Source: a virus. Taken from it: a stretch of 26,305 nucleotides of DNA. Positions 4,239 through 25,049 of the stretch are shown here, piece by piece. Under the pieces are notes generated by a model that was not told where the DNA came from, did not search any database, and was given only the letters and a program-made list of their open reading frames with translations. The stretch covers positions 1 through 26,305 of the IMG/VR virus record IMGVR_UViG_3300035698_001312; one strand, given 5' to 3'. Each line of letters starts with the position of its first letter. Position 1 is the first letter of the stretch. Both the position numbers and the translations under genes were made by a program.

Positions 4239-4487
4239 CTAGCTTTTTGTCGCTTCAACTAAAAATCTCCCCTTAATATACGCCAACATCTCATGAGACT
4301 TACGAGTAATTAACTTATCAGTCTCTGAGAACATGATAGGACCATCACCCTCCTTCACACCGTAGTGCTTGGCTATGTCCATGTCGTCTACTATATTAAC
4401 AAACGTCACCCTACTGTCCAGCTGCCTTAGGTTTACGAACTCTCTTAGGCTTTGTAGGTTTTGGTTCCGGTTTAGGAATATCTTCAT
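4239..4487 (-). CDS. Glutaredoxin/thioredoxin-fold protein lacking the CxxC motif
   Basis: 82 aa from ATG 4487 (AAGGAAAGCAGTA before it). The order of elements reads like a glutaredoxin: strand KIFLNR, helix NLQSLREFVNL, strand VTFVNIV, helix DMDIAKHYGV, then GDGPIMF where the conserved cis-proline strand would be, a turn, and the helix SHEMLAYIKG. The segment that should hold CPxC reads NRNQ, and there is no Cys, so it is unlikely to be a thiol oxidoreductase. A start at GTG 4409 would avoid overlapping the ClpP-like gene but would delete the first strand and helix. With ATG 4487 the two genes overlap out of frame for 77 bases. Confidence 0.55.
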   Translation of the reverse strand: MKIFLNRNQNLQSLREFVNLRQLDSRVTFVNIVDDMDIAKHYGVKEGDGPIMFSETDKLITRKSHEMLAYIKGRFLVEATKS

Positions 4488-5043
4488 TACTGCTTTCCTT
4501 CTCTGTATTGCACACCTTATCAATACGGCCAATGACTTGCTCTGACCCAAGGTGTATGTCCACACCAGATAGAACCTTATCTATCTCCTCCGAAGAGAAG
4601 AAGGGCTCATACACTGAGTGGAAGATTTTATGTATTAGTGCACGGTTATGGTCTGTAGAGGAATGGACATCAGATGTCTTACCCCCTGTGATCATTGAAC
4701 CTACATGCACTAGGAACGTACTTAAGTCTGACACACTTAGGATGTCCCCAGCGAAGAAGATTAATCCCCCCGCTGAAGCCACACAACCATCAGCATGAGT
4801 AGCAACTCTGCCAGCACATGCCCGCATCGAGTTAATAACCTGCATGGTTGTATACATGTCTCCACCTTCAGTGTTAAGATAGATGTTAACAACATCGTTA
4901 GGACTACAGAACTTGAGGGTTCTTATAAGTGACCTAGTGTTATCATCATTCTTAACTTCTCCCGTGAGGAAGTAGTTGTGTGCCGTGCTAAGCTCATGTC
5001 GGTGGTTAGAGTCTTGTTGACCCATAAGTTCATTAAACTGCAT
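4411..5043 (-). CDS. ClpP-like serine protease
   Basis: 210 aa, ClpP/crotonase-like fold. The sequence shows IYLNTEGGDMYTTMQVINSM (the glycine pair of the ClpP oxyanion region), DGCVASAGGLIFFAG with the nucleophile Ser in the A-S-A position, STFLVHVGS with the catalytic His, and SGVDIHLGSEQVIGRID matching the ClpP D-x-x-x-x-x-x-E-A-x-x-x-G-x-x-D end region. A Pro/Lys-rich tail (about residues 190-210) is unlike standard ClpP and is overprinted by the next gene. Possible roles are capsid or replication-protein processing, but it does not sit near virion genes in this window. Start ATG 5043 follows GGAG and overlaps the preceding stop. Confidence 0.8.
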   Translation of the reverse strand: MQFNELMGQQDSNHRHELSTAHNYFLTGEVKNDDNTRSLIRTLKFCSPNDVVNIYLNTEGGDMYTTMQVINSMRACAGRVATHADGCVASAGGLIFFAGDILSVSDLSTFLVHVGSMITGGKTSDVHSSTDHNRALIHKIFHSVYEPFFSSEEIDKVLSGVDIHLGSEQVIGRIDKVCNTEKESSNEDIPKPEPKPTKPKRVRKPKAAGQ

Positions 5044-13946: not shown

Positions 13947-15086
13947 TTAGAACTCATCATCCAGTCTAGGTCTTGCCACCATGCGGTGGATTTCCCTTAG
14001 CTCATGTAGGTGTCGTTCCCTCCGAGCAGCTAGGACCTCTTCGCCAGGGTTTTCAGTAACTCCTAATCCCCCTCTGACGGGTGGCACCTCTTGCCACCTG
14101 CCGGAGCCCGGCGAGAACACCATATGGGGCAGCTCAGAAGGGGCTGTCAATGCCTCATTTAACGACACTCTGGTAGGCTTAAGATACTGGACCTTAGGGG
14201 GACGTGTCCTTGGGAACAGCCCCACTATCCCTGACCCATCTTCTACCGGCATCGCAGCGGCGAAGGGGTTGGTATTCTTACCTACATCCACAGTGTCCCA
14301 ATCTATATGGTAGGCTATCTGCTGTGCATTGCTAAGGCCCAAGTCTAATAGCTCTTCCATATTGTCTGTGGCTAGGAAGTCCAAAGTCTCCCCAAGGTTT
14401 CTAGTAACAAACTCTGTACGGTTCTCCGTGAAATCCTTGACCATGTCAGAGGGGTTGGCGTAAGTCAGGGAAGACTCCCTGATTTTAAGTAGCGCCCTAG
14501 TCCAAGACTTCAGCACATCATGGTCGGTAGTGCTACGCATCCCACGAAATTCTACACTGCCATGTTCAAGCAAGGACTTGAGGTTTATGAAGGAGTATCG
14601 GATAGCATCGGTGTAGAACAAACTTAAGTTGCCGGTTTGTGCCACCTGCCTGATGACCTCTAATAGGTACGGGGCATCGGTAGTCCTAAGGCAGAACAGG
14701 TTACCTACCCTACTCTTTCCGCAGTACTCAGCCAGATTATTTTCAAAGATAACCGACATGGTGATGAAGTTAAACAATTGTAATACACTCAAGTCTTGTA
14801 CATTGACATGGGTGTGAACACCCGCCCTTACAGTTTGATTAACACTAGACCGGCTGGCTGTGAAAGCCTCTGATAGCTCACGCAACGCCCCACAGAACTC
14901 CTCGTACCCACTAGGTTTCTTTAGCACGTACTCTCTAGCCCCAGCCCCCCGAAGGGAGCCGTCCATTGTCACGTGCCAGTTGTCCAGCCCTTCGGGTAGG
15001 TGGTTACCCTCGTGCTCAATCTCGAAACCTATTTGACCTGATACTAATTTCTTCTTAGAGAAACAACACAACTCCCCTATATTCAT
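13947..15086 (-). CDS. Amidoligase (Amidoligase_2-type COOH-NH2 ligase)
   Basis: 379 aa. The glutamine-synthetase-like amidoligase fold is predicted from SGQIGFEIEHEGNHL (the opening G-x-E-x-E), HVTMDGSLRG (D-x-S), GVHTHVNVQDLS (H-x-H) and RYSFINLKSLLEHGSVEFRG, where the late N-x-x-x-x-x-x-G-x-x-E-F-R box is characteristic. These families join a carboxylate to an amine using ATP. The C-terminal 100 residues are poorly conserved in appearance, Pro/Arg-rich and probably extended. ATG 15086 follows GAGGAG by six bases and overlaps the preceding gene by 4 bases. The substrate is unknown; context points to peptide or gamma-glutamyl bond formation. Confidence 0.8.
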   Translation of the reverse strand: MNIGELCCFSKKKLVSGQIGFEIEHEGNHLPEGLDNWHVTMDGSLRGAGAREYVLKKPSGYEEFCGALRELSEAFTASRSSVNQTVRAGVHTHVNVQDLSVLQLFNFITMSVIFENNLAEYCGKSRVGNLFCLRTTDAPYLLEVIRQVAQTGNLSLFYTDAIRYSFINLKSLLEHGSVEFRGMRSTTDHDVLKSWTRALLKIRESSLTYANPSDMVKDFTENRTEFVTRNLGETLDFLATDNMEELLDLGLSNAQQIAYHIDWDTVDVGKNTNPFAAAMPVEDGSGIVGLFPRTRPPKVQYLKPTRVSLNEALTAPSELPHMVFSPGSGRWQEVPPVRGGLGVTENPGEEVLAARRERHLHELREIHRMVARPRLDDEF

Positions 15087-15661
15087 AGCAGACTCCTCTG
15101 TAAATCCGTCTGAAGGTACTGGTAGTCAGGGAATAACTCGGGAGTTCCGTTGCTAACTTCCCCGACATGGGTACCAAACTTGTGGCGCAGTGCACCTTGA
15201 TCATCCACTGTCCAATCATTACTCCATGCCATTGATCGCATAGCCTTGTTATCCCCAGTGAGAACTGCTGTTATACACTGCTCAAAGGTTGGATAGTCCT
15301 TAGTAAAAGTTTTATAAAGGTCTCTTCTACTAAGGTCCCGGATGTTTAATCCATAGTGGCTGTGCAGGTTTTGCATCCTAGTACCCTGCCGGTAGTCACT
15401 ACGTTTAGGCATCCGGCATATGTAAGAGGACGCACCCCTCGCATTGACATAGCCTATTTGAGGGGGGCACAAGTCTAACTCCGACAGTGGTACGACATTG
15501 GAGATATCCTCATCCTCCAAATCCCTTACTGTTGCCACTGCATTGTTGCCTATCCCCTCTACACGCACGACAGTCACAGGTCTGCTGTTGTGATGCACAA
15601 TAGTATTACCTAGCCTAGTCTCGGCATAATCTCCATCACCATCATAATGTGAACCAATCAT
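15083..15661 (-). CDS. Hypothetical protein between the two amidoligases
   Basis: 192 aa, not recognised. The N-terminal 65 residues look like a beta barrel (SRPVTVVRVEGIGNNAVATV followed by VVPLSELDL). The rest is mostly helical, with a basic run (RMPKRSDYRQGTRMQNL) and the acidic segment TDQG-like region near WSNDWTVDDQGALRH. GGGGG lies four to five bases before ATG 15661. Tight linkage on both sides (4-base overlap downstream, 9-base gap upstream) suggests it works with the amidoligases, perhaps as an acceptor or scaffold; that is inference. Confidence 0.6.
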   Translation of the reverse strand: MIGSHYDGDGDYAETRLGNTIVHHNSRPVTVVRVEGIGNNAVATVRDLEDEDISNVVPLSELDLCPPQIGYVNARGASSYICRMPKRSDYRQGTRMQNLHSHYGLNIRDLSRRDLYKTFTKDYPTFEQCITAVLTGDNKAMRSMAWSNDWTVDDQGALRHKFGTHVGEVSNGTPELFPDYQYLQTDLQRSLL

Positions 15662-15670
15662 ACTGCCCCC

Positions 15671-16507
15671 TTAAAGTTTAGGAAGTGGGATGTTATTGGT
15701 TTTGGCCAAGTAGGGCACATTGAATATATCAGCTTTATTAGAGTTGATATACTCAGATGGTCTTACCTTTTTAGTCAGGGACTTACCGGACATGAGGTTG
15801 TCAAAGGCCAGCTTAGCATTACTAAAAATCCACTCGGTTAGTACATCATTACCTACCCAAGCATTGGAGGGGGTGCGGTACTCTACACCGTAAGGTTTGA
15901 CACGCATTGCACCAGCCTTGCCATACAAAGTCTTGCGTAGTTTGGCAGGCTCACTGCTATCTAACCATGCCATGATCATACCAATGTAGATGTCCAACTC
16001 TTTGACAAGCATGGAGCAAGCTTCACGGTGTCCGGGGTCATTGATGTCCATACCCTCTGTCCAGCCGATATGGATATGACCGGAGCCAGTGCGGTACTTA
16101 ACCTCTGGTGTGGGTGGCTTGTTTTCCTCCATTGTGTAAGCATTAAGATCAGGCTCACAACCCAGCTCCCGCTCCTCATCTACAACACCCTCCCAAACTT
16201 TATCCGAGAATGTAACCGAAGGTCTGTTAACCAACTCATACTCCGGCACTAACTTGGACAGCTCTATCAAGACCTGCTTGTTGACCGCAACAAATTCCGC
16301 AGCTGTGCTGGCAGGGTTAATGTTGTACTCAGCAGCCATGCCATCATGTTGCACTGCACCACCTTCGACAGGATGGGGCTTCTTCTTAGTGCCGGGAACT
16401 AAGTTAAACGCAGACACCCAAGGCTTGCCTTGTGTAGTTGCTCGCATAAATAATTCAGGGTCAGCACCCATTTTAAATCCTAGTACGCCTTTAGTTTTTT
16501 CAGTCAT
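15671..16507 (-). CDS. phiEco32-type amidoligase (COOH-NH2 ligase)
   Basis: 278 aa from ATG 16507 (AAAGGAG, seven bases before); the in-frame TTG at 16513 has poorer spacing. The family signature is clear: FKMGADPELFMRA, AVQHDGMAAEYNINPAS, RTGSGHIHIGW with the H-x-H motif, and YGKAGAMRVKPYGVEYRTPS near the C-terminus. The Glu/His/Arg residues in these boxes build the ATP- and metal-binding site of glutamine-synthetase-like amidoligases. The family was described from phage phiEco32 and relatives, linked to ATP-grasp and glutamine amidotransferase genes, the same neighbours as here. Expected to form an amide bond on an unknown peptide or small molecule. Confidence 0.87.
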   Translation of the reverse strand: MTEKTKGVLGFKMGADPELFMRATTQGKPWVSAFNLVPGTKKKPHPVEGGAVQHDGMAAEYNINPASTAAEFVAVNKQVLIELSKLVPEYELVNRPSVTFSDKVWEGVVDEERELGCEPDLNAYTMEENKPPTPEVKYRTGSGHIHIGWTEGMDINDPGHREACSMLVKELDIYIGMIMAWLDSSEPAKLRKTLYGKAGAMRVKPYGVEYRTPSNAWVGNDVLTEWIFSNAKLAFDNLMSGKSLTKKVRPSEYINSNKADIFNVPYLAKTNNIPLPKL

Positions 16508-16532
16508 AATCAATCTCCTTTGTAAAAATTAC

Positions 16533-17936
16533 TTAACACTTAACTACATCATTAACATCACATCTGGGACACACAGGCTCGCCGGAGTACCAGTCTAATT
16601 CTTTCTCATCCTCAACATCAAGGTGATCCCCACATACACAACAGCCGTTTTTAAGAATACGCTCAAAAGTAGTCTTGTCCACTAGGTCCCCACCTTGGAT
16701 AGTGTAGATGTTACTGTCTGCTGTACCTTCCCCATCATCATGCTCGATAAGGAGTGGACTTTGGTTAGGGCCACCTGTCAATTCAATAAAGGTCCTACCT
16801 GCATCCTCTATTGTGTTGACCTTCATCAGCAGGTAACTTCCTTTGGACTTTCTTACCAGTCCCCTGAAGACTTTACCGGGTCGGCATACCTTAGTCCAAC
16901 TAATAGTACTCACAATAGGGGCTATCCTAACTTCCACATCAGGTTCTAACAGCACATGCCCTTGTATGTATGGTGTCTCCTTGTTGGGGAACACGGACCC
17001 ATCTATTTGAAAGTATATGGGGGCTAGGAAATTCATTTTAGCTATGGCAGGGTTATCAGACTTCTCTTTAGACACCTTGTTTATGGGGATGACATTACCT
17101 TTGATATCCCTGATAGGGGCACGAGGCAGGGGGCGAGTGCGGAACCCTCTGTACTCTGTGTAATCATCCCAGTTACTAGCCGAGTAGTTCTGCGAACCAT
17201 GATACGTCTGGTGTTTGAAGGGTACACACTTTTTTATACGGAATTTACCGAACCTTTTATTTGTCATGTTTCCCGTGGTCGGCGGCAATTCAATTTTGTA
17301 ATGGTGGTTCTCTAAGAACTCATACATCTCACAAGCAGTAGTATCCACCTTAGCTGCCTTAGCTGCACGACGGATAAAGTACGTTTCACTTGCCCAGTAC
17401 ATAGTGCTAGCATCAGCGGACATACACCAGAACAAAGGCCGTTGACTATTACGGATGAAGTTCAGGGTGTTATCCCCCTCATCATACCATGTAAGGGCTA
17501 GTGCCCCACTAGCATTGCTGAGTGCAGACTCTACGCCATCGCTGGCGATGTGATCGAACAGTGCCATACTGTCCACAGGTAGGTCAGGATTGTTCAACCC
17601 AGACACATTCCTAAGGGTGCCGTTATGGGCACCGTATATAGTGCCGTAGTTAAATGGGTGGGCATTCTCTTTGTTCACAACACCCAAGGTTGCAGCACGA
17701 TTATGTCCCAACAGCAGGTTTAAACCTTTGGCCTCCATGTTTTCAATGAAGTCCCCATCAAAATATAAGCCTAACCAAGGCACCCCTGTATCTTTAGCTA
17801 TAACAGTACCAACATCACTGTTAAATACCACACCTGTGGAGTCCTCACCACGTATGGTATCTAACTCCAACATCTTTCTAAACATTTTCTTATGTGGAGG
17901 ACGTATGTCCCCCGCTATCCCTACTAATCCGCACAT
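16533..17936 (-). CDS. Class II glutamine amidotransferase with C-terminal zinc ribbon
   Basis: 467 aa from ATG 17936; the start is fixed by MCGLVGIAGD, since Cys2 is the Ntn nucleophile, and by GAGGGG upstream. Further class II GATase features: TIRGEDSTGVV, LLLGHNRAATLGVV, NAHPFNYG and AHNGTLRN, then SMALFDHI and GALALTWYD. The N-terminal domain (about 200 aa) releases ammonia from glutamine. The middle has no recognisable synthetase domain, so the acceptor site may lie in a partner such as an amidoligase. The last 40 residues hold CCVCG and CPRC (zinc ribbon). Lies between the paralog trio and the amidoligase. Confidence 0.88.
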   Translation of the reverse strand: MCGLVGIAGDIRPPHKKMFRKMLELDTIRGEDSTGVVFNSDVGTVIAKDTGVPWLGLYFDGDFIENMEAKGLNLLLGHNRAATLGVVNKENAHPFNYGTIYGAHNGTLRNVSGLNNPDLPVDSMALFDHIASDGVESALSNASGALALTWYDEGDNTLNFIRNSQRPLFWCMSADASTMYWASETYFIRRAAKAAKVDTTACEMYEFLENHHYKIELPPTTGNMTNKRFGKFRIKKCVPFKHQTYHGSQNYSASNWDDYTEYRGFRTRPLPRAPIRDIKGNVIPINKVSKEKSDNPAIAKMNFLAPIYFQIDGSVFPNKETPYIQGHVLLEPDVEVRIAPIVSTISWTKVCRPGKVFRGLVRKSKGSYLLMKVNTIEDAGRTFIELTGGPNQSPLLIEHDDGEGTADSNIYTIQGGDLVDKTTFERILKNGCCVCGDHLDVEDEKELDWYSGEPVCPRCDVNDVVKC

Positions 17937-17937
17937 A

Positions 17938-18258
17938 TTAAATCCCCTCTGGGTTGAGTCGTTTGTACCAGATACGTACTCTGGTATCAGGGTGGTTAGT
18001 CTTCTCTGCCCACCTGCTGTGAGCAAATCCTGCCTCCCTTAGGGATGCGATGGCAACCTCTTGATCATCAGAGGTAGTAGCTGTCAATACCGCCATACCC
18101 CTAAGCCTTTCTTCTTCACACTTCTCTCGAATCTCTATCACAAGTTCGGGTTGTGTGTACTCCGCGTCACGGCTATGCAGCCCGCCATGCGCTGACTGGC
18201 CGAAGCCGGTCAGAACTCTCATCGTGCAACAGTTAGGCATTGCTACTACCGCAACCAT
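17938..18258 (-). CDS. Paralog trio, member 3: CC-motif protein
   Basis: 106 aa, most divergent of three tandem relatives. Shared features: an N-terminal Cys pair (MPNCCTMRVL), then MAVLTATTSDDQEVAIASLR followed by EAGFAH, and a final strand RVRIWYKR, matching AVMIA[ST]T..QQ..A..IL...GF ... I..W in the other two. The C-terminal half resembles the last helix and strands of a GNAT acetyltransferase, but no acetyl-CoA loop (R/QxxGxG/A) is seen. ATG 18258 follows GGGGAATGTTTAG. Its final codons (GAG GGG ATT TAA) supply the Shine-Dalgarno of the GATase gene. Confidence 0.65.
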   Translation of the reverse strand: MVAVVAMPNCCTMRVLTGFGQSAHGGLHSRDAEYTQPELVIEIREKCEEERLRGMAVLTATTSDDQEVAIASLREAGFAHSRWAEKTNHPDTRVRIWYKRLNPEGI

Positions 18259-18588
18259 CTAAACATTCCCCAATGGTGCGGTCCACACTCGGATAGAATT
18301 ACCACCTGCACTGGGGGGTCTCTCACTCTCAGAGGCCATAGTAAACCCTGCTGCCGTCAGTATCTCAGAAGCGTAAGGTTGTTGTGGGGTAGTGGTAGCA
18401 ATCATCACAGCCCGCCCACTACTTTTGGCAGTAACCATACCTTTCTTAACCGAGGCGACATCTTTGGCTAGTCCCGCCTGACCAAAGATATTATTAGTTA
18501 TAGCTGGGGCCTCACCATATGGAAAGTCGTGCATATACGCTACACCACAACAGCTCATGCTATTATCACTTGAAACTAAGTTAAACAT
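18259..18588 (-). CDS. Paralog trio, member 2: CCG-motif protein
   Basis: 109 aa. Starts at ATG 18588 with GAAGGAG eight bases upstream. It shows SCCGVAYMHDFPYGEAP near the N-terminus, directly comparable with CCGIAEISNFPFDGG in member 1, then GRAVMIATTTPQQPYASEIL and AAGFT, and a late NSIRVWTA strand. The middle (KDVASVKKGMVTAKSSG) is probably helical. The three genes follow each other with 0-3 base gaps, so they arose by tandem duplication and diverged. Function unknown; possible substrate, carrier or GNAT-like fragment of the ligation system. Confidence 0.68.
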   Translation of the reverse strand: MFNLVSSDNSMSCCGVAYMHDFPYGEAPAITNNIFGQAGLAKDVASVKKGMVTAKSSGRAVMIATTTPQQPYASEILTAAGFTMASESERPPSAGGNSIRVWTAPLGNV

Positions 18589-18591
18589 AGA

Positions 18592-18942
18592 TCAATCTCC
18601 TTCCGCAAGGATGCGGTCTTCTTCCTCAGTGTACTCATGTACACCCCTTGTCCACAGTGTAATACTGTTGCCCTTGTTAGAGTCCCGCCGATGTGATACT
18701 CCGTGTGCATCCACAAATCCCATACTGCTTAGTATCTTAGCTGACTGAGACTGCTGATTAATGGTGCTTGCAATCATGACGGCCCTATTATGTCGTCTGG
18801 CCCGTTCTATTTCCATGTGCAAATCATTACGGATGGATTGTAAATCCATTTTCCTGTACTCCTTGTCAGAAGAAATGCCCCCATCAAAGGGAAAGTTAGA
18901 TATCTCTGCTATTCCACAGCATTCTAAAGTCGCTTGATCCAT
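18592..18942 (-). CDS. Paralog trio, member 1: CCG-motif protein
   Basis: 116 aa from ATG 18942 (GGGGG five bases upstream, one base after the ATP-grasp stop). Begins MDQATLECCGIAEISNFPFD, continues with a charged helix (LHMEIERARRHN), then RAVMIASTINQQSQSAKIL and SSMGFVD, a basic patch (SHRRDSNKGN) and SITLWTRGV. An acidic tail follows (EYTEEEDRILAEGD) that the others lack. Same family as the next two genes. The Q-S-x-x-I-L-x-x-x-G-F segment is what the terminal helix of GNAT proteins looks like, but the enzyme's cofactor loop is absent. Confidence 0.68.
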   Translation of the reverse strand: MDQATLECCGIAEISNFPFDGGISSDKEYRKMDLQSIRNDLHMEIERARRHNRAVMIASTINQQSQSAKILSSMGFVDAHGVSHRRDSNKGNSITLWTRGVHEYTEEEDRILAEGD

Positions 18943-18943
18943 A

Positions 18944-19819
18944 TTAACCCCCTACCAGTTGTGCATTATCTGAAATTGCAGGATGTATAAACTTTCTATA
19001 GCCCCCACGTCCTTCCCGTAATGGGATACTTTCTTTACTGTTGTTGTTGAACATGTAATCGAAACACTTAGCCATACATGCTTGACGGTGGGTTGGGTCC
19101 CCATCCTCTTTGAGGGGGAGGCTAGGCGCTGAGTTGATCTCGATGATATAAGACCTACCATCTTGATCTGTCATCACGTCCACACCGCCGAAGTCTAGTC
19201 CACTTAAGTTGAAGGCTTCGACAGACTTACGTACTGCCTGCATTGGCCAATCATCCCAACGTACATGATCGAACCTGCCCCCTTGTGCTACGTTCCATGC
19301 TACAGCAGTTCGATCAGCTGGAGTCTTCTCAGCTACCGCTGCTACCCTACCCTGTACTACAAACACACGGTACTCAGCTACCTTGTTAATAAGTTCAGAG
19401 ATATAGTACAAAGGGTAGCGAGCACATGCCCTGCGTAACTCTTGTAAGTTGTTGCACAAGTGTAACCTACGGCCTTGTGAGTGTACGTTAGGACGTACTA
19501 TACAGGGGTAAGTGACTCCAGCATCATCAACATTGTACCATGTGTTAGGGGCTAACTCCGTGCCCTCCGTGACTAACTGCCGCCGGAAGTTAAGCTTATC
19601 ATTCACACGTTGAATGGCAGCGGCGGGTTGAATGACATTAAAGTGTTCAGGTACTGTGTCTGTACAACCCCAACGCACTAGCCACGGATGCCCTGTTTGG
19701 TACCCTCTTCGGTTACGTACATCGTTACGTGCTACCACTATCTCGTGCTCAGATAAACGTCTGATACCGTGGCACGACCCTGCGCCTAGCCTACGTCTTC
19801 TCAAAAATATAGCTGTCAT
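18944..19819 (-). CDS. ATP-grasp ligase
   Basis: 291 aa. ATP-dependent carboxylate-amine/thiol ligase fold. Features: a substrate-binding N-terminal domain ending near NDKLNFRRQL, a lid/ATP region with PCIVRPNVHSQGRRLHL (Lys replaced by Arg at the first ATP-binding position), ISELINKVAEYRVFVVQGRV, and the metal box DFGGVDVMTDQDGRSYIIEI followed by NSAPSLPL with the Asp/Glu/Asn ligands. The family is linked to GATase and amidoligase genes in phiEco32-like phages. ATG 19819 follows GGAGAT encoded in the tail of the upstream small gene. Substrate unknown. Confidence 0.87.
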   Translation of the reverse strand: MTAIFLRRRRLGAGSCHGIRRLSEHEIVVARNDVRNRRGYQTGHPWLVRWGCTDTVPEHFNVIQPAAAIQRVNDKLNFRRQLVTEGTELAPNTWYNVDDAGVTYPCIVRPNVHSQGRRLHLCNNLQELRRACARYPLYYISELINKVAEYRVFVVQGRVAAVAEKTPADRTAVAWNVAQGGRFDHVRWDDWPMQAVRKSVEAFNLSGLDFGGVDVMTDQDGRSYIIEINSAPSLPLKEDGDPTHRQACMAKCFDYMFNNNSKESIPLREGRGGYRKFIHPAISDNAQLVGG

Positions 19820-20085
19820 AATTTTGTATCTCCATTGGTTATCGTTCCATTACTAATAACTGATTGATGTAAAATTGGGATAGGGAGTACCACAGGTGGC
19901 AGTAGTTGGTCCTTGTGGTAGACGTGCCCGTTCTGCATACCTATCATTTCCCCCTCCATGTAGGTGACTATAACTTCATCTCCCTCTGTGTGGTTCATTG
20001 TTTTCCAACCTTCCCAGTAGCTGTTTGTGATGCTGAAGTCCCCCACTACAAACCTGTCCCCTATTTTAATACTTGAGTTACTCAT
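19816..20085 (-). CDS. Small SH3-like protein with shared C-terminal tail
   Basis: 89 aa from ATG 20085. The body begins SSIKIGDRFVVGDFSI, has GDEVIVTYMEGEMIGMQNGH and HVYHKDQL: short strands with turns, likely a small barrel. The end LPIPILHQSVISNGTITNGD belongs to the Pro/Leu tail family seen in seven other small genes here; its codons AAT GGA GAT contain the Shine-Dalgarno of the ATP-grasp gene (GGAGAT, start 19819, 4-base overlap). Being wedged between the GATase-like hydrolase and the ligase, it is a candidate accessory of the ligation island. Family not recognised. Confidence 0.65.
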   Translation of the reverse strand: MSNSSIKIGDRFVVGDFSITNSYWEGWKTMNHTEGDEVIVTYMEGEMIGMQNGHVYHKDQLLPPVVLPIPILHQSVISNGTITNGDTKL

Positions 20086-20347
20086 GGGATATCCCCCCTG
20101 CCCTGATACTTATTAAAGGTAGCACCGGCAAGGTGGCAGTTTCAACAACTGAAAGCTGATCTATATCAAATGTATTAGGCCACTTTCTCCCCTCAATTAA
20201 GACTCGTACCCCATCTCCATGGACAGCACTTACACCTTCAACAACTCCCATTTTTCCTACATTGTTGCCCAAATTTTCACTGCCAGACCAAAACCTAAGG
20301 TTAGGGGGTTTAAATTTTACCTGAACTTTTGTACCTTGTGGAAACAT
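20078..20347 (-). CDS. Small SH3-like protein with shared C-terminal tail
   Basis: 89 aa from ATG 20347 (AAGGGG at good spacing); the in-frame GTG at 20353 is less likely. Body: GTKVQVKFKPPNLRFWSG, GKMGVVEGVSAVHGDGVRVL, then TFDIDQLSVVE, a KOW-like pattern. Tail: ATLPVLPLISIRAGGISHE. The codons for the closing Gly-Gly-Ile give AGGGGGGATA, the Shine-Dalgarno for the next gene (start 20085, overlap 8 bases). Second tail-bearing gene within the ligation island. Confidence 0.67.
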   Translation of the reverse strand: MFPQGTKVQVKFKPPNLRFWSGSENLGNNVGKMGVVEGVSAVHGDGVRVLIEGRKWPNTFDIDQLSVVETATLPVLPLISIRAGGISHE

Positions 20348-20352
20348 AAGCA

Positions 20353-20967
20353 CTACCCCTTATCAACTAAGTGATTCCAGATCAGTTGGAAATAATAGGC
20401 AGTGAGTTGGTCATACCCACTGTGCTCTGGGTGTGGCTGGAAGCATAGGGATTTAGTCTTCTTAATCACTGCCACTTCTATGCCCCGTGTTGAGCCTGCC
20501 CCAGCGGTTGCGCCATTGTCCATTGAGTACGCTAACACATGACTCCACATGCCAGACTTCTCACTGGCTTTCATTGCTTGGTGGTGGGTAGAATTAGCTC
20601 GGCATATGACACCCTCAGAGGGTCCACCGCGAAGGTCATGGCCCTGTTTATGGCCTGACACATCTTGGTACAACTTACCCCCATTCATAACCCAGAGGAA
20701 CTGTGCCCCTCTACACACACCGGCCATAGGCTTCTTGCCTTTATACCTGTCATATATTTCTTTCTCGTAGCGGTCCCGCTCAGGCTTGTTACGGGTGGTA
20801 TGATGTCGCTGTTGTTTATATAAGGAAGGGGTGACATCTGCCCCGCCTATGAACTGGATCAAGTCAGCTGAGTTTATATCCCCAGTCACTCCCCACCCAT
20901 TGGCTAAGAACATATTAGCAAAGGGACTGACAGGGTTGTATCTAGCTGGCACTATGAATACTTTCAT
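20353..20967 (-). CDS. Class I glutamine amidotransferase-like hydrolase (peptidase C26-like)
   Basis: 204 aa. Class I GATase fold. Visible: FIVPARYNPVSPFANMF, a loop with FIGGADVTPSLY, the nucleophile elbow MAGVCRGAQFLWVMNGG (Cys), NSTHHQAMK, and FQPHPEHSGYD with the His and Glu of the triad. The GAD-x-x-P-x-x-Y and STHHQ features resemble gamma-glutamyl-GABA hydrolase and folate gamma-glutamyl hydrolase rather than a biosynthetic GATase subunit. It probably cleaves a gamma-glutamyl amide. ATG 20967 follows AGGAG and overlaps the upstream gene by 26 bases. With GGCT at 21831-22211 it makes a likely breakdown arm of the island. Confidence 0.83.
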   Translation of the reverse strand: MKVFIVPARYNPVSPFANMFLANGWGVTGDINSADLIQFIGGADVTPSLYKQQRHHTTRNKPERDRYEKEIYDRYKGKKPMAGVCRGAQFLWVMNGGKLYQDVSGHKQGHDLRGGPSEGVICRANSTHHQAMKASEKSGMWSHVLAYSMDNGATAGAGSTRGIEVAVIKKTKSLCFQPHPEHSGYDQLTAYYFQLIWNHLVDKG

Positions 20968-21844
20968 GCTGTAGCTCCTGTATTGCTTTGGTTAATATTT
21001 TAGAGAAGGACACCAGTGCCTTCACCATGTCAGTATCACTGGCGTAGGTTTGAGTTGGCTTAAGGACGGGGGGAGCGACGCCAAACGGATTGGCTTTGCA
21101 AACGATGGCAGGCTTGACCTTGAAGTTATTATTTATTAACTCTTGCAAGGTGTTGGGACTGTCACAGTTTGAGTACAACTTTCCTGATAGGTAGCAACTA
21201 TGTACAGAGTGGTAGTCAGTCTGTTCCCTGAAGGGCATCACATCACGCTGTGCCTGTCCCCTAAGGAAGTTATCACAATCCCGCACTGTCATTCTTTGCA
21301 GGTCAAGTACAGTGTGGGTTGAGTAGCTTGAGCCAAACTTGTAGGTACCCTTGTGCCCACAAATACCTTCCGATAATAGGAAGGCCATGTTATCGCCAAG
21401 TCCCACATCAATCATCTTGCTAAACATTTTAACACGGTGTGGCTTAGACCACAGGTTACGAACCCCGAACATGCCAAGCATCATGATGTTGCTAGCACAA
21501 GATGTATTGAACACCGACAGACCTTGGTCTTTGATATGTTCTACATCCTTGCTTAAGAATGCATCATTAAAAGGGCCAGTCAATGTTAGGTACTCTAGGT
21601 ACCTAACTTTATCAAGGGCACTGCTATCAGACCATCCGTGCTCTTGCTTTTGTAAGACTGAAACAACAGCCTGACACCCATCAGGGGCAGAAGTTAGCCC
21701 TCCGTAGCAGCCAGTGCCTGCTGTCCTAGCTATACTTCCACCGGCATCAACAGTAAAACTGAGTGAGCCTATGTCGTAGTCTTCAAGTGGGTCTATTCTC
21801 ACCACAATTTTTTCTAAAATACTTTGGATGTCAACCACGGACAT
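20942..21844 (-). CDS. Unrecognised Cys/His-rich protein in the ligation island
   Basis: 300 aa from ATG 21844 (MSVVDIQSIL), preferred over 21862 because GGAGG lies just upstream. About eight Cys are scattered, e.g. GTGCYGGLTSAPDGCQAVV, FNTSCASN, EGICGHKGTY, RDCDNF and HSVHSCYLSGKLYSNCDS. The first 40 residues have strands with acidic residues (VRIDPLEDYDIGSLSFTVDA). No membrane segment. Motif order does not match any enzyme family I know. The central part (NLWSKPHRVKMFSKMIDVGL and NMAFLLSEG) is helical. Position between a GATase-like hydrolase and GGCT-like gene suggests it acts in the same pathway. Confidence 0.7.
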   Translation of the reverse strand: MSVVDIQSILEKIVVRIDPLEDYDIGSLSFTVDAGGSIARTAGTGCYGGLTSAPDGCQAVVSVLQKQEHGWSDSSALDKVRYLEYLTLTGPFNDAFLSKDVEHIKDQGLSVFNTSCASNIMMLGMFGVRNLWSKPHRVKMFSKMIDVGLGDNMAFLLSEGICGHKGTYKFGSSYSTHTVLDLQRMTVRDCDNFLRGQAQRDVMPFREQTDYHSVHSCYLSGKLYSNCDSPNTLQELINNNFKVKPAIVCKANPFGVAPPVLKPTQTYASDTDMVKALVSFSKILTKAIQELQHESIHSAS

Positions 21845-22211
21845 GTGACCTCCAATCCCCATTAGGGACTACAGCGTGTGAATCCACTGAGTGATTGAAC
21901 TGGTAGACAATGGCTTCAATACTGCCGTAACTCGTTTGCACCACATGCTTACTGTACAGAGAGCTTGGCACATTGCCACGGTGCCCTTCGTAACTGTCTA
22001 ACCTAGGTAGGATAGCGTCATCAGTAACTTCATACAGCTCCCCTTGGACCTTGTCTTCCCCCCCTAGTATGATGCCGGGGAATCCCCCATTAATATCATA
22101 CATCTTACCATCAACAGTGGCAGTACCAAGCAGCTCGGCCCCTGCCTGTAGCATGGGGTTGGCACCGAACCCCGTCATTAATGTGCCGTAAACAAATAGG
22201 AATTTAGACAT
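21831..22211 (-). CDS. Gamma-glutamylcyclotransferase-like protein (AIG2/GGACT family)
   Basis: 126 aa. The family's signature is at the N-terminus, FLFVYGTLMTGFGANPML (Y-G-T-L/S-x), followed by LLGTATVDGKMYDINGGFPG, VQGELYEVTDDAILPRLDSY, where the catalytic Glu lies in the next few residues (DSYEGHR). These enzymes release 5-oxoproline from gamma-glutamyl amines or peptides. Start ATG 22211 has GGAGG upstream, encoded in the previous gene. It overlaps its neighbours by 8 and 14 bases. A role in removing gamma-glutamyl groups fits the neighbouring ligases and hydrolase. Confidence 0.87.
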   Translation of the reverse strand: MSKFLFVYGTLMTGFGANPMLQAGAELLGTATVDGKMYDINGGFPGIILGGEDKVQGELYEVTDDAILPRLDSYEGHRGNVPSSLYSKHVVQTSYGSIEAIVYQFNHSVDSHAVVPNGDWRSHVRG

Positions 22212-22632
22212 CCTTACTCACCTCCTGAACCACAATATCCATGTTACTATCTGTGAGTATCAGTGTTTTGTCCGAGTCAACGAACTCACTGTACTCCCCC
22301 ACATCCATACTAACTTCTGACACTTCCACTTGGGACTCAACACTAACTTTATCCCAAGCCCCAGTGTGTACACATACAGTGCACTCATTCCTATCAGCCA
22401 CACCTTTAAGGGCCATAACACCCTCTCTAGAGTGTGCCGGTGGTATGAGTACTGTGTGTGGCACCTTCACTAGGGTGTGGTTACCCCCAACACATTGCAC
22501 AAACGTCTTAGCTTTCTTTGTCACTATAAGTTCCTCCTCAAAGGCTTCTTTCTTTTTAAATTTTAACATCAGTAGGTAAATTATTATGTACCCCACCAGT
22601 ATCATAAAGTACTCACTCACAAAGCCACGCAT
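22204..22632 (-). CDS. Single-pass membrane protein with soluble domain
   Basis: 142 aa. The N-terminus has one hydrophobic segment (FMILVGYIIIYLLMLKF, about residues 9-25), followed by a Lys-rich stop-transfer sequence and a soluble part with VQCVGGNHTLVKVPHT and ECTVCVHTGAW, an acidic beta-rich end (DVGEYSEFVDSDKTLILTD). The gene can start at ATG 22632, overlapping the previous stop as TAATG, or at ATG 22605 (MILVGY), which has GAGTGAG upstream. The latter gives a tidy N-terminal anchor. Role unknown; may place a ligation-island partner at the membrane. Confidence 0.62.
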   Translation of the reverse strand: MRGFVSEYFMILVGYIIIYLLMLKFKKKEAFEEELIVTKKAKTFVQCVGGNHTLVKVPHTVLIPPAHSREGVMALKGVADRNECTVCVHTGAWDKVSVESQVEVSEVSMDVGEYSEFVDSDKTLILTDSNMDIVVQEVSKDV

Positions 22633-22925
22633 TATATATCTAAACGGGAATTGTAAAGGGTCGGCACAATAATACTGCGGGTGGGGCTTATCTTCTCTTG
22701 TAGTAATTGAGTTTTCTTTTCGTTGAGGTACGCCTTGAACACACCTGCCCGCTTGCAGTCACTGAAGACCCTGCCACCCACTGCTTGCAGGAAGTCTGTA
22801 CTTACACCAAGGTTTGTTCGCTGTATGATATGGCTCATGATAGGCTCTCCTACCAAATCCCCTTTGATGTAGTACACAACCGAGCCGAAGGCTAAGTCTA
22901 CGTTATCCCATGTTTTCTTTACCAT
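22632..22925 (-). CDS. Hypothetical protein
   Basis: 97 aa from ATG 22925 (MVKKTWDNVDLAFGS). I prefer this to ATG 22940 because GGAG lies nine bases upstream, formed by the tail codons of the preceding gene. No membrane segment; one Cys. A middle Gly-rich turn (FLQAVGGRVFSDCK) separates probable helices. It lacks the shared C-terminal tail, ending PTLYNSRLDI. Not recognised. Overlaps both neighbours, so translation is coupled. Confidence 0.58.
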   Translation of the reverse strand: MVKKTWDNVDLAFGSVVYYIKGDLVGEPIMSHIIQRTNLGVSTDFLQAVGGRVFSDCKRAGVFKAYLNEKKTQLLQEKISPTRSIIVPTLYNSRLDI

Positions 22926-23238
22926 TTTTAATCGCTCCATTTTTAATTGATTTGTATTTAAATTTAGGGGGTGGTATCAGGGGGGGTGTCTCGATTAATA
23001 ACCGGCTAATGTACACCTGTTCGTAAGTATCATGCACACTTCCTATGATCACAGTACCATCAGAGAAGATGCGCTGCACTACGAAGCTCCTTTCATACTC
23101 AAAGCAGGGGTCTAAAACTCTGCCCACTACCACTGCCATAAGAATTCTTTTCCACCTTGGTATCAGTACAGCTGGCTGTCTTCGTGGGATAACAGCTGTC
23201 TTTGATAGCAAGTGCTGCTCTATTAAGTAACTAATCAT
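22903..23238 (-). CDS. Small SH3-like protein with N-terminal extension and shared tail
   Basis: 111 aa if started at ATG 23238 (MISYLIEQHLL), two bases after the stop of the 27-aa minigene. The domain proper begins near residue 34 (MAVVVGRVLDPCFEYERSFV), where an internal ATG with AGGTGG 12 bases upstream could also serve. Body: FVVQRIFSDGTVIIGSVHDT, YISRLL. Tail: PPLIPPPKFKYKSIKNGAIK, a member of the shared Pro/Ile tail family, its AAT GGA GCG ATT codons giving the Shine-Dalgarno of the next gene (start 22925). Unlike its relatives it carries a basic N-terminal segment. Confidence 0.6.
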   Translation of the reverse strand: MISYLIEQHLLSKTAVIPRRQPAVLIPRWKRILMAVVVGRVLDPCFEYERSFVVQRIFSDGTVIIGSVHDTYEQVYISRLLIETPPLIPPPKFKYKSIKNGAIKNGKENMG

Positions 23239-23240
23239 AC

Positions 23241-23324
23241 CTATCTCACTTGGTTGTGTGTAAGAGTGCTAAAGCCCACTATACACGCAACTGCCTCAGG
23301 TGTTCCCAAATGACCTACTCCCAT
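23241..23324 (-). CDS. 27-aa minigene with strong Shine-Dalgarno
   Basis: A 27-codon ORF beginning MGVGHLGTPEAVACIVGFST. Its ATG at 23324 is preceded by AAGGAGGATTAGT, one of the best ribosome-binding sites in the window, and its stop lies two bases before the ATG of the next gene. Peptide features: Gly/Ala-rich, one Cys, weakly hydrophobic middle. It may be a real micro-protein, or a leader that couples translation. Family unknown. Confidence 0.5.
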   Translation of the reverse strand: MGVGHLGTPEAVACIVGFSTLTHNQVR

Positions 23325-23325
23325 A

Positions 23326-23502
23326 CTAATCCTCCTTAACTAAAGTGAAAGATACCCAATTATCTTGGTTGATTATTTCAATAACTTGCATACCATTTTC
23401 TATATGTGCTACACACAGGTGCTGCTTAACACCTATCGTGGGGTTGTCTGCGTTTTTAAATATCTTAACACCATTCCGTGAGGTTCTCACCCTCACTTGC
23501 AT
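23326..23502 (-). CDS. 58-aa small protein
   Basis: Starts at ATG 23502 (MQVRVRTSRNGVKIFKN), eight bases after GGGGAG that lies in the tail codons of the preceding gene. The sequence alternates strands with turns (TIGVKQHLCVAHIENG, then MQVIEIINQDNWVSFTLV), so probably a beta barrel or sheet like its neighbours, but it ends LVKED without the Pro-rich tail. The last codons encode the strong Shine-Dalgarno AAGGAGG for the 27-aa minigene. Not recognised. Confidence 0.65.
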   Translation of the reverse strand: MQVRVRTSRNGVKIFKNADNPTIGVKQHLCVAHIENGMQVIEIINQDNWVSFTLVKED

Positions 23503-23747
23503 GATTTAATCTCCCCAGCTATGACTACTGTTGTAAGATCAAACACAGGGTAGGGTTCACAGCAGCCAAAGTTAAGATGGGATTGCCAGCTATAAACTTT
23601 CCTTGCAGCTGACCCATCATCTGGGTATCGAAGAACTCTTATCCTACCCATCTCAATTGATACTTCATACAATTTATAAAGGTCCCCGCTTATTCTGCCT
23701 ACCAAGGCATCACCTATTTTTAGCCCTTCAAATTCTGTTTTAGTCAT
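23493..23747 (-). CDS. Small SH3-like protein with tail (cassette E)
   Basis: 84 aa. Starts MTKTEFEGLKIGDALVGRIS after GGGGAGG in the codons of cassette D. Body: KLYEVSIEMGRIRVLRY and KVYSWQSHLN, likely a five-strand barrel, with GDALVGRI similar to the G-D/G-Q opening of other members. Tail: EPYPVFDLTTVVIAGEIKSC, with ATA GCT GGG GAG carrying the Shine-Dalgarno of the next gene (start 23502). Similar tails occur in cassettes A-D, suggesting duplicated modules. Function unknown. Confidence 0.66.
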   Translation of the reverse strand: MTKTEFEGLKIGDALVGRISGDLYKLYEVSIEMGRIRVLRYPDDGSAARKVYSWQSHLNFGCCEPYPVFDLTTVVIAGEIKSCK

Positions 23748-24012
23748 ACTTGAACCTCCCCATTCTTAATGACAGTGTTGGTAAGTGTGGGGGAGGGACA
23801 TGGGCAGCTCGACTTACAAGTACTATCTCCCTATCAAATAAGGTGGTGCTCCGCATTGCTTCATTATTAATTCTAAGGTTGGTGAGTTGGGGGTTACTTT
23901 CGGATACTGTGTAGGCCTTATCCAAAATTAAATTGAACATATCAAGATTCTTAGCGACTATACTGTCGGGATTTACCCTGATCTCATCCCCAATATTAGC
24001 TATCCTGGACAT
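23740..24012 (-). CDS. Small SH3-like protein with tail (cassette D)
   Basis: 90 aa. Starts MSRIANIGDEIRVNPDS after AGGAGGT, eight bases upstream, which is the Gly-Gly part of the preceding tail. Body: KAYTVSESNPQLTNLRIN and DREIVLVSRAAH, again short strands. Tail: VPPPHLPTLSLRMGRFKYD, the ATG GGG AGG codons serving as Shine-Dalgarno for the next gene at 23747. Shares the IGDEI-R-V opening with IGDRFVV at 20085. Function unknown. Confidence 0.66.
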   Translation of the reverse strand: MSRIANIGDEIRVNPDSIVAKNLDMFNLILDKAYTVSESNPQLTNLRINNEAMRSTTLFDREIVLVSRAAHVPPPHLPTLSLRMGRFKYD

Positions 24013-24253
24013 GACTGATACCTCCTGAATAAATAACAGTTAACACTAGAGGGGGTGTGGGTTCCCTAGGGGCGGCAGTAACCATAGTAAATATATCTTG
24101 TGGGTACTCTCCCCAAAGGACTTCATCAGGCTGGTACTCTCGGACACGAGCTATCGCTAACATATGTTGGCCCTGTTTAAATGAGCCCAGCCCTACCACA
24201 CGGTACAAGTCCTGCGTATTTTTCAGTAAATCCCCCACTATAAACTTATCCAT
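23996..24253 (-). CDS. Small SH3-like protein with tail (cassette C)
   Basis: 85 aa from ATG 24253 (MDKFIVGDLLKNTQDLYR), which follows GGGG in the tail codons of the preceding gene; the ATG at 24271 has no such signal. Body: LYRVVGLGSFKQGQHMLA, ARVREYQPDEVLWGEY. Tail: EPTPPLVLTVIYSGGISHVQ. The Ser-Gly-Gly-Ile-Ser-His codons spell AGGAGGTATCAGTCATG, that is, Shine-Dalgarno, spacer and start codon of cassette D. Probable paralog of A and B. Confidence 0.68.
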   Translation of the reverse strand: MDKFIVGDLLKNTQDLYRVVGLGSFKQGQHMLAIARVREYQPDEVLWGEYPQDIFTMVTAAPREPTPPLVLTVIYSGGISHVQDS

Positions 24254-24509
24254 GTGAGATAACCCCATCAAAAATGGTATTAACTGGGAGGCTAGGCAAT
24301 GGCTCTTCTTCTTGCAAAGTGCAGTACTTATTCCAGATGGCTAAAATCCCAAGCCTCTCGTGTACTACGCTGATTGCCCTATCAGGCATCCCTTTGTAAG
24401 GTCCCAACACTCTGTAAATTGACCCATCTAGCCTGCTTGACATATACTCAGGGGCCTTGTAATAAACTCGTTGGCCTTCCCTAAATCTTTTATCAGTTTC
24501 ATGTGACAT
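24246..24509 (-). CDS. Small SH3-like protein with tail (cassette B)
   Basis: 87 aa from ATG 24509 (MSHETDKRFREGQRVYYKAP), seven bases or so after GGGAG; the frame start at 24527 is unsupported. It aligns along its length with cassette A: F-x-x-G-Q-x-V/x in the opening, then S-R-L-D-G-S-I-Y-R-V-L-G-P versus S-L-R-G-K-V-F-M-V-V-G-P, and later AIWNKYC versus VFWSKHC. Tail: EEPLPSLPVNTIFDGVISHG. This is the clearest paralog pair in the array. Function unknown. Confidence 0.7.
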   Translation of the reverse strand: MSHETDKRFREGQRVYYKAPEYMSSRLDGSIYRVLGPYKGMPDRAISVVHERLGILAIWNKYCTLQEEEPLPSLPVNTIFDGVISHG

Positions 24510-24759
24510 GTTCAATAACTCCCGCATTTACTATAGTTACTGGCAATTTAGGTGCCAGTTCTTGATGAACTGCGTAGCAGTGTTTACTCCAGAAAACTAT
24601 ATGTCCAACCCCCCTGTTGTAGACATGTATTGCAAGGTCAGGGTTGACTAAATTAGGGCCCACCACCATAAACACCTTACCACGGAGGCTACTAGCTCCT
24701 GGGGGCATGAACCTAACTAGCTGGCCTTTACAGAACTTTCCTATCTTTTCTTTAGGCAT
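24499..24759 (-). CDS. Small SH3-like protein with tail (cassette A)
   Basis: 86 aa from ATG 24759 (MPKEKIGKFCKGQLVRFMPP). The upstream frame extends to a GTG at 24837, but the ATG follows the previous stop by two bases, has GGGG upstream, and gives the same length as its paralog cassette B. Body: SSLRGKVFMVVGPNLVNPDL, HIVFWSKHCYAV. Tail: ELAPKLPVTIVNAGVIEHVT, with GCG GGA GTT ATT holding the Shine-Dalgarno of cassette B. One-quarter of its residues appear identical to B by eye. Confidence 0.7.
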   Translation of the reverse strand: MPKEKIGKFCKGQLVRFMPPGASSLRGKVFMVVGPNLVNPDLAIHVYNRGVGHIVFWSKHCYAVHQELAPKLPVTIVNAGVIEHVT

Positions 24760-24761
24760 AC

Positions 24762-25049
24762 CTAATACCCCATATGATCTGACAACGATTGGGCCTGACT
24801 CATGCTCACCATTGCCAGTTGTGATATCTTCTCCCACTCCTCCTGCTCCTTCGCAGCAGTGCGTAGGATTAACATACCTTCCGGCCCCGTTGATTGGTAT
24901 AAGGGTTGGTGGTGTGCAGCAGTAAAGTCAGCTACCTGCCTAGCAAATTCCTCTTGCTCATGCGGGTCGGTAGCAGGGAAGTGCATTTGTCCCACGTTAC
25001 CTAGATTGGTGGCGATTGCTGCTAAAATACTATTACGATAGATCGTCAT
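24762..25049 (-). CDS. Hypothetical helical protein
   Basis: 95 aa from ATG 25049 (MTIYRNSILAAIATNLGN), with GGGGAT eight bases upstream; the ATG at 25064 has no ribosome-binding site. The protein is mainly helical and acidic: HEQEEFARQVADFTAAHHQP and AAKEQEEWEKISQLAMVSMS. No Cys, no membrane segment. Not recognised. It starts the run that leads into the tail cassettes, its final codons (ATG GGG TAT) forming the Shine-Dalgarno of cassette A. Confidence 0.6.
   Translation of the reverse strand: MTIYRNSILAAIATNLGNVGQMHFPATDPHEQEEFARQVADFTAAHHQPLYQSTGPEGMLILRTAAKEQEEWEKISQLAMVSMSQAQSLSDHMGY

Follow-up and report, generated by a model that had tools for sequence, protein, structure and literature searches.

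A set of seven genes in RIO-1-like phages has been described as a putative peptidoglycan modification cassette, which is common to phiEco32, 7-11, PA11, tf, LUZ24, PaP3, and CW02 (PMC5498523, PMC11945000, PMC10580990). The published cassette includes a gamma-glutamyl cyclotransferase (GGCT) and a glutamine amidotransferase (GATase), and later papers credit it to Hardies 2013 and Iyer 2009 (PMC5498523, PMC11945000). In Pseudoalteromonas phage PSA-HP1, the module genes are expressed immediately, ahead of the replication genes (PMC7082346), a timing more in keeping with takeover of the host than with the assembly of virions. Here, we analyze the gene run at positions 13947-22211 of the IMG/VR virus record IMGVR_UViG_3300035698_001312 (26,305 nucleotides; this whole stretch is called the window). 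The run is a member of this known kind of module, with a testable new lead in the C-terminal tails shared by small proteins of related phages and with added interest from P306, a protein of 306 amino acids.

The module is thus less new than an earlier sequence-only reading of the window took it to be, because it had already been published as a putative peptidoglycan modification cassette. Added here are a defined conserved core, a bond-cutting enzyme in every locus examined, the placement of P306 and of the 192-residue protein P192 in that core, and a group of tailed candidate substrates. The early module consists of seven genes that encode P306, C26, ATP-grasp, class II GATase (GATase II), COOH-NH2 ligase, P192, and Amidoligase_2, and it is accompanied by GGCT and CC-motif proteins as accessories:

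13947..15086, minus strand: Amidoligase_2 ligase (GCS/GS-like), 379 amino acids, core (PF12224, E 2.5e-8; phrog_7469, E 6e-62).
15083..15661, minus strand: P192, small beta-barrel protein, 192 amino acids, core, found in 47/47 loci (phrog_11055, E 2e-30).
15671..16507, minus strand: phiEco32-type COOH-NH2 ligase, 278 amino acids, core (PF14395, E 1e-12; phrog_3815, E 1e-69).
16533..17936, minus strand: class II GATase (N-terminal nucleophile (Ntn) type, Cys2), core, starts MCGLVG (PF13522, E 1e-14).
17938..18258, minus strand: CC-motif paralog 1, accessory (phrog_8299, E 3e-19).
18259..18588, minus strand: CC-motif paralog 2, accessory (weak phrog_8299 match, E 0.012; CC motif by eye).
18592..18942, minus strand: CC-motif paralog 3, accessory (weak phrog_8299 match, E 0.0018; CC motif by eye).
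18944..19819, minus strand: ATP-grasp ligase (RimK/R2K-like), 291 amino acids, core (R2K_3, E 5e-9; RimK, E 6e-8).
20353..20967, minus strand: C26/class I GATase-like gamma-glutamyl hydrolase, 204 amino acids, core in Zobellviridae (PF07722, E 4e-17).
20942..21862, minus strand: P306, unrecognized protein and possible new enzyme, core, found in 45/47 loci (no Pfam match).
21831..22211, minus strand: GGCT (GGACT/AIG2-like), accessory (PF06094, E 9e-23; phrog_2520, E 5e-23).

All genes of the run lie on the minus strand and neighbors mostly abut or overlap, as the sequence-only reading had described. Its identification of the ATP-grasp ligase, two amidoligases, a GATase II with Cys2, C26, and GGCT is borne out by clear family scores. 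It had also placed tail proteins in the run, for which no support was found: family and PHROG profile scans gave no tail-family match for any protein of 13947-22211, and the genes adjoining the run are replication genes.

The module probably represents an early multi-step amide or gamma-glutamyl pathway that makes amide bonds on an acceptor and cuts gamma-glutamyl bonds. Going by the enzyme families, the GATase II would release ammonia from glutamine. At the expense of ATP, the ATP-grasp ligase and the two GCS-like ligases would form one amide bond after another, of the gamma-glutamyl or isopeptide type, on the same acceptor carboxylate. C26, together with GGCT where it is present, would cut a gamma-glutamyl bond, so that the product is trimmed, recycled, or reversed. 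P192 may serve as an adaptor for binding, and P306 may be a further enzyme that depends on Cys/His. A soluble metabolite or a nucleotide is a fairly unlikely acceptor.

The catalytic residues of the six enzymes are kept across 42-128 relatives in alignments. In Amidoligase_2, E22/E24/E26, E52, H91/H93, R126, E179, and R181 are each conserved at 100% (rounded) among 119 relatives. The gene start at 17936 gives the GATase II the N-terminus MCGLVG and hence Cys2, which is found in 98% of 123 relatives. R29, N79, N105-G106, and D122 are conserved as well and form the glutamine site, so that both the N-terminal Cys2 and the Arg/Asn/Gly/Asp site of class II (Ntn) GATases are present. The C-terminal segment of the same protein carries four cysteines (C432/C435/C456/C459, kept in 95-98% of the 123) and is probably a zinc ribbon. 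In the ATP-grasp ligase, K75, E149-x-R151, K165, D214, and E227-x-N229 are 99-100% conserved in 128 relatives, and the ExR, Asp, and ExN motifs of the broad group of ATP-grasp peptide ligases are found at E149-x-R151, D214, and E227-x-N229. R2K_3, RimK, R2K_2, and TTL all exceed the Pfam cut-off. In the R2K.3 family, ExGD replaces ExN in the last kinase-like strand (PMC4431377). The window protein and its relatives have E227-x-N229 instead, so that, whatever the Pfam score, the protein is more safely called a RimK-like ATP-grasp than a member of R2K.3. Some module phages have two ATP-grasp genes (L034, L038, L041, L049, L062, L066, L067, L097, L116).

The published proposal, repeated in PMC5498523, PMC11945000, and PMC10580990, is that the module modifies peptidoglycan or the envelope, for superinfection exclusion or in preparation of lysis. 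The ligases would build unusual linkages on the cytoplasmic peptidoglycan precursor, and C26/GGCT would strip gamma-D-glutamyl linkages of host or phage. Most of the listed isolates infect Gram-negative bacteria, and the immediate expression in PSA-HP1 (PMC7082346) is also consistent with this proposal. Against it, the known or predicted substrates of R2K/RimK/TTL-type ATP-grasps are for the most part proteins or free amino acids (in part PMC4431377). Moreover, no part of the module is specific for muropeptides, and no wall chemistry is reported in the literature searched. Modification of the wall is a serious possibility that stops short of being probable.

On the bond-cutting side, C85, S126-x-H128-H129-Q130 (strict SxHHQ), and H179-P-E181 of C26 are 99-100% conserved in 110 sequences. 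C85, H179, and E181 provide the Cys-His-Glu triad that the sequence-only reading had pointed out. C26 or GGCT occurs in 47/47 loci, and the sole locus without C26 has GGCT. These observations support the suggestion, made earlier from the window, that makers and cutters of bonds occur together in the module; the co-occurrence of a cutter with the ligases does not establish that it undoes the bonds they make. The pairing resembles the Puu pathway, in which the GS-like ligase PuuA makes a gamma-glutamyl bond that the C26 hydrolase PuuD cuts. The window differs in that no Puu oxidase or dehydrogenase is found among the proteins scanned and in that it adds a GATase II and has three ligases in all.

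The COOH-NH2 ligase has relatives in 317 of 50,697 phage records, all below 60% identity. A single-sequence scan with this ligase gave no matches, whereas the alignment-based search did give loci, and the gene order of 80 IMG/VR loci obtained in this way was read by profile searches. Co-occurrence was counted in those 47 IMG/VR loci that had sufficient flanking sequence on either side. ATP-grasp, GATase II, COOH-NH2 ligase, P192, and Amidoligase_2 are present in every one of these (47/47). C26 is found in 46 of them and P306 in 45; 43 have the primase, 13 have GGCT, and 10 have a CC protein. When loci are anchored on C26 instead, the COOH-NH2 ligase is found in 63/63 loci with enough flank, in a set that shares contigs with the COOH-NH2-anchored set and is not independent of it. 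The clustering is beyond chance, with synteny kept in tens of divergent phages. Rare co-occurrence, which had been named beforehand as evidence against a common pathway, was looked for across the loci, and the opposite was found. Of the genes whose co-occurrence the sequence-only reading had asked about, C26 belongs to the core (46/47), and GGCT (13/47) and the CC proteins (10/47) are accessory in the 47-locus group.

The same gene set is found in annotated Zobellviridae (PA11/TC6, CVT22, Klyazma, CW02, and two oyster-associated phages) and typifies those members of the family that were examined. The window holds only the early half of its phage genome, whose module, primase, and polymerase suggest a relation to this family. 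RIO-1, PSA-HP1, phiEco32, PA11, LUZ24, and CW02 share with the window two amidoligases, an ATP-grasp ligase, a GATase, and GGCT in an early replication region, and PA11 and CW02 have the window's gene set in nearly identical order. Accordingly, the makeup of a RIO-1/phiEco32-type module is seen in the window, where the COOH-NH2 ligase, the second amidoligase, ATP-grasp, and GATase II lie in one early run and GGCT is present. The window differs from the podovirus cassettes in the ATP-grasp gene between C26 and the CC genes, the three CC paralogs, and the GGCT gene upstream of P306. The closest architecture is that of locus L010 (P306, C26, ATP-grasp, CC, CC, GATase II, COOH-NH2 ligase, P192, Amidoligase_2, primase), which has one CC gene fewer and no upstream GGCT and otherwise keeps the same order.

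Shorter forms of the module are found in LUZ24-like, Kuravirus, Lahexavirus, and Rhizobium phages (UFV-P2, the ZRK32 phage, NJ01, LAh_8, and Rhizobium N3_13). In the LUZ24-like UFV-P2, gp21-gp29 comprise a COOH-NH2 ligase, a protein of ~190 amino acids, Amidoligase_2, GATase II, ATP-grasp, and GGCT before the primase. This arrangement differs from the window in the missing C26, the GATase gene after Amidoligase_2, and a CC protein gene several kb off.

In a phage credited to a Planctomycetes strain, the same genes have been called nitrogen-metabolism genes (PMC10945688). According to this explanation, they would feed nitrogen or amino acids to the host through glutamate/glutathione-like metabolism, as was claimed for the ZRK32 phage. 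The claim rests on the growth of bacteria that were given whole phage and not on the genes (PMC10945688), and a set of several ligases with P192 and P306 far exceeds the needs of nitrogen assimilation, which makes a metabolic role most improbable. As a separate observation, the module of this phage (L009; OP650935, Poriferisphaera phage ZRK32) is of the LUZ24-like form and groups with UFV-P2 on a quick ligase tree. The published phylogeny of the ZRK32 phage also points to Pseudomonas, and it may be worth checking whether the host is indeed a planctomycete.

The position of the module is constant beside primase/helicase and DNA polymerase. This position would suit a modification of nucleotides or DNA bases with an amino acid or amine that is tied to the adjacent replication genes. 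However, no hydroxymethylase, transglycosylase, or kinase-family base-modifying partner is found among the window proteins scanned, and such a role appears quite unlikely.

The recognition of P306 as a core module component is new in this analysis. The sequence-only reading had noted an unrecognized protein of ~300 amino acids as part of a larger pathway, in agreement with its presence in 45/47 loci. In 96 sequences, C52, R135, and H183 are 99-100% conserved and a Glu at position 139 is 99% conserved, which suggests that P306 may be a Cys/His-dependent enzyme. Its AlphaFold model (pLDDT 88, pTM 0.89) gave 28 matches against the PDB in Foldseek with a best E of 1. A known fold was not assigned after a second look at the top Foldseek chains (Z ≤3.2), although a missed or distant match is possible. 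Against predicted viral proteins, significant matches from named sources include CVT22, CW02, RIO-1, and Aeromonas phage 4_4572, with weaker matches in Proteus 3H10_20 and Aeromonas LAh_8. The named phages with structural relatives of P306 carry the module, as seen here or according to the literature.

The other protein added to the core, P192, would probably be an adaptor. Its AlphaFold model has a pLDDT of 94.6, and ~60 residues of its N-terminal part match Tudor/chromo-like barrels with Z up to 6.7. The structural search for a function gave small-barrel similarity only, over part of the chain. G70, R83, and R87 are 99-100% conserved.

Several points weigh against an amide or gamma-glutamyl pathway. 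No experiment on the chemistry of the module and no tested enzyme substrate were found in the literature searched, in line with the earlier statement that the product is unproven. The P306 of the window has S139 and lacks the near-invariant Glu a few residues after the invariant Arg. C26 is not universal: in the LUZ24-like UFV-P2 and the Kuravirus NJ01, GGCT is present and no C26 was seen. The COOH-NH2 loci were picked by similarity and the anchor sets overlap in contigs, and conservation among related phages may reflect common descent as well as common function.

A possible acceptor emerges from the small proteins of the relatives. In some of them, the module genes are interspersed with many small genes, whose proteins have the same ending. 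CVT22 has ~17 proteins ending in LENE and Klyazma ~10 in LENK, while Rhizobium phage N3_13 has 11-13 with forms of QxGDTEDDI, L156 has 8 with EDIWL, and L104 has a dozen with forms of LEEYM. Across phages, the tail sequences are LENE, LENK, LEENV, LEDWM, EEYM, EDIWL, TEDDI, and FKGN. Beyond the tail, the proteins belong to differing families (FKVGD-type and MDH-type in L104). Sets of 5-14 small proteins with a shared tail, mostly at the protein level, are seen in L005, L006, L028, L042, L048, L104, L124, L137, L138, L152, L156, L162, L171, L277, and L280.

The tails are often followed by the start codon of the next gene, and a Shine-Dalgarno artifact was therefore taken seriously as their cause. 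A codon test asks whether conserved tail residues use different codons, expressed as synonymous differences observed/expected. In L171, L104, L138, L028, L048, L152, and L156, this ratio is 0.87-1.10; the synonymous differences reach 87-110% of expectation, and it is therefore the amino acids that are conserved. In CVT22 it is 0.50, and the ribosome-binding site contributes to the conservation. In L194, a ThyX control locus in which no module was detected, at least five small proteins at ~15.4-20.6 kb end in FGVEE with a ratio of 0.11. Their codons are nearly identical, and this shared tail is explained by the ribosome-binding site and start-codon overlap, which makes the locus a useful negative example. 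A pure Shine-Dalgarno artifact thus holds for L194 and partly for CVT22 but fails for the seven loci.

Counting as a set at least five small proteins with one tail conserved at the protein level, 13/92 module-bearing contigs have such a set vs 0/39 control loci (Fisher p 0.008); p was 0.11 with a first, smaller control set of 16 loci, and the 13 positive contigs include related ones. The enrichment with the module is accordingly suggestive rather than settled. A general habit of phages rich in small genes was rejected as the source of the tails, as none of the 39 control loci has such a set and no repeated tail occurs in the T4 and SPO1 stretches. In the 13 positive contigs, the synonymous ratio is 0.74-1.13, and the codons are nearly as free as elsewhere. 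Genes for tailed proteins are located within the module and in the replication region next to it, with none in the virion half of CVT22. On a quick ligase tree, the tailed phages fall into few clades in which nearly all members are tailed, and the tail differs between members. One tail per genome that changes in concert suggests a shared recognition partner, and the shared-tail sets are possible ligase substrates or a binding signal.

The module is a candidate for this partner because the broad ATP-grasp group includes known modifiers of protein C-termini, namely LysX, which acts on the tail of LysW, RimK, which acts on S6, and TTL, which acts on tubulin. By analogy, the ligases could modify small phage proteins that bear the phage-specific tail. 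The ATP-grasp ligase belongs to the same broad group as these modifiers, and the tails of the relatives are short and often acidic; in contrast, there are several tailed proteins per phage. LysW is a zinc-finger amino-group carrier whose EDWGE-like C-terminus is modified by an ATP-grasp ligase. No LysW homolog was found, and PHROGs gave no carrier match for those tailed proteins that were tried; no dedicated carrier profile was run. The enrichment over controls, the nearly free codons, the location in or beside the module and outside the CVT22 virion half, and the concerted change of tails that cluster on the ligase tree all argue for tagging. On the other hand, most module phages, including L010, show no shared-tail set, the tails need not hold a Glu (FKGN), and the conservation is in part (CVT22) or wholly (L194) due to the ribosome-binding site. 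The tails could be explained equally well by a separate partner that all of them bind, and the contigs are not fully independent. Tagging of protein C-termini is rather doubtful. The more specific version, in which the module is a tagging system for the tails of small early proteins, with P306 aiding and C26/GGCT removing the modification, is unlikely. If tagging is true, the tail sets would be the first candidate substrates for the module. The module is common (relatives of its COOH-NH2 ligase in 317 phage records), and the defined core together with the candidate substrates makes the question of its chemistry directly testable.

In the window itself, eight small proteins encoded by overlapping genes (19816-24837) share a loose end, [ST][IV]xxGxI:

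19816-20085 and 20078-20353, minus strand: two small proteins with a loose shared C-terminal segment, no family match.
22903-23238, 23493-23747, 23740-24012, 23996-24271, 24246-24527, and 24499-24837, minus strand: six small proteins with a loose shared C-terminal segment.

Only the proteins at 24246 and 24499 are clear paralogs among them (E about 1e-14), and the link of the six to the module is uncertain. A right-anchored test for a strict shared tail was non-significant (Z 0.8), the strict motif is found in 4/43 proteins, and the loose segment partly coincides with ribosome-binding sites; a C-terminal tag is therefore not claimed for the window.

The three CC proteins (17938-18942), which the sequence-only reading had called paralogs, are one family: all match phrog_8299, two of them only weakly. 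In CC paralog 1, C10-C11 and G77 are invariant in 19 sequences.

The window corresponds to the early half of a podovirus-like genome. It encodes a ribonucleotide reductase, exonucleases, a family A DNA polymerase, a sigma-like factor, and a primase/helicase, followed by the run 13947-22211. A direct DNA search for near relatives of the window found none, and the six proteins tried gave no PADLOC match to anti-phage defense. A gene for a protease of the ClpP-like or head-maturation type (4411-5043; phrog_1827, E 2e-43) lies amid the early replication genes.

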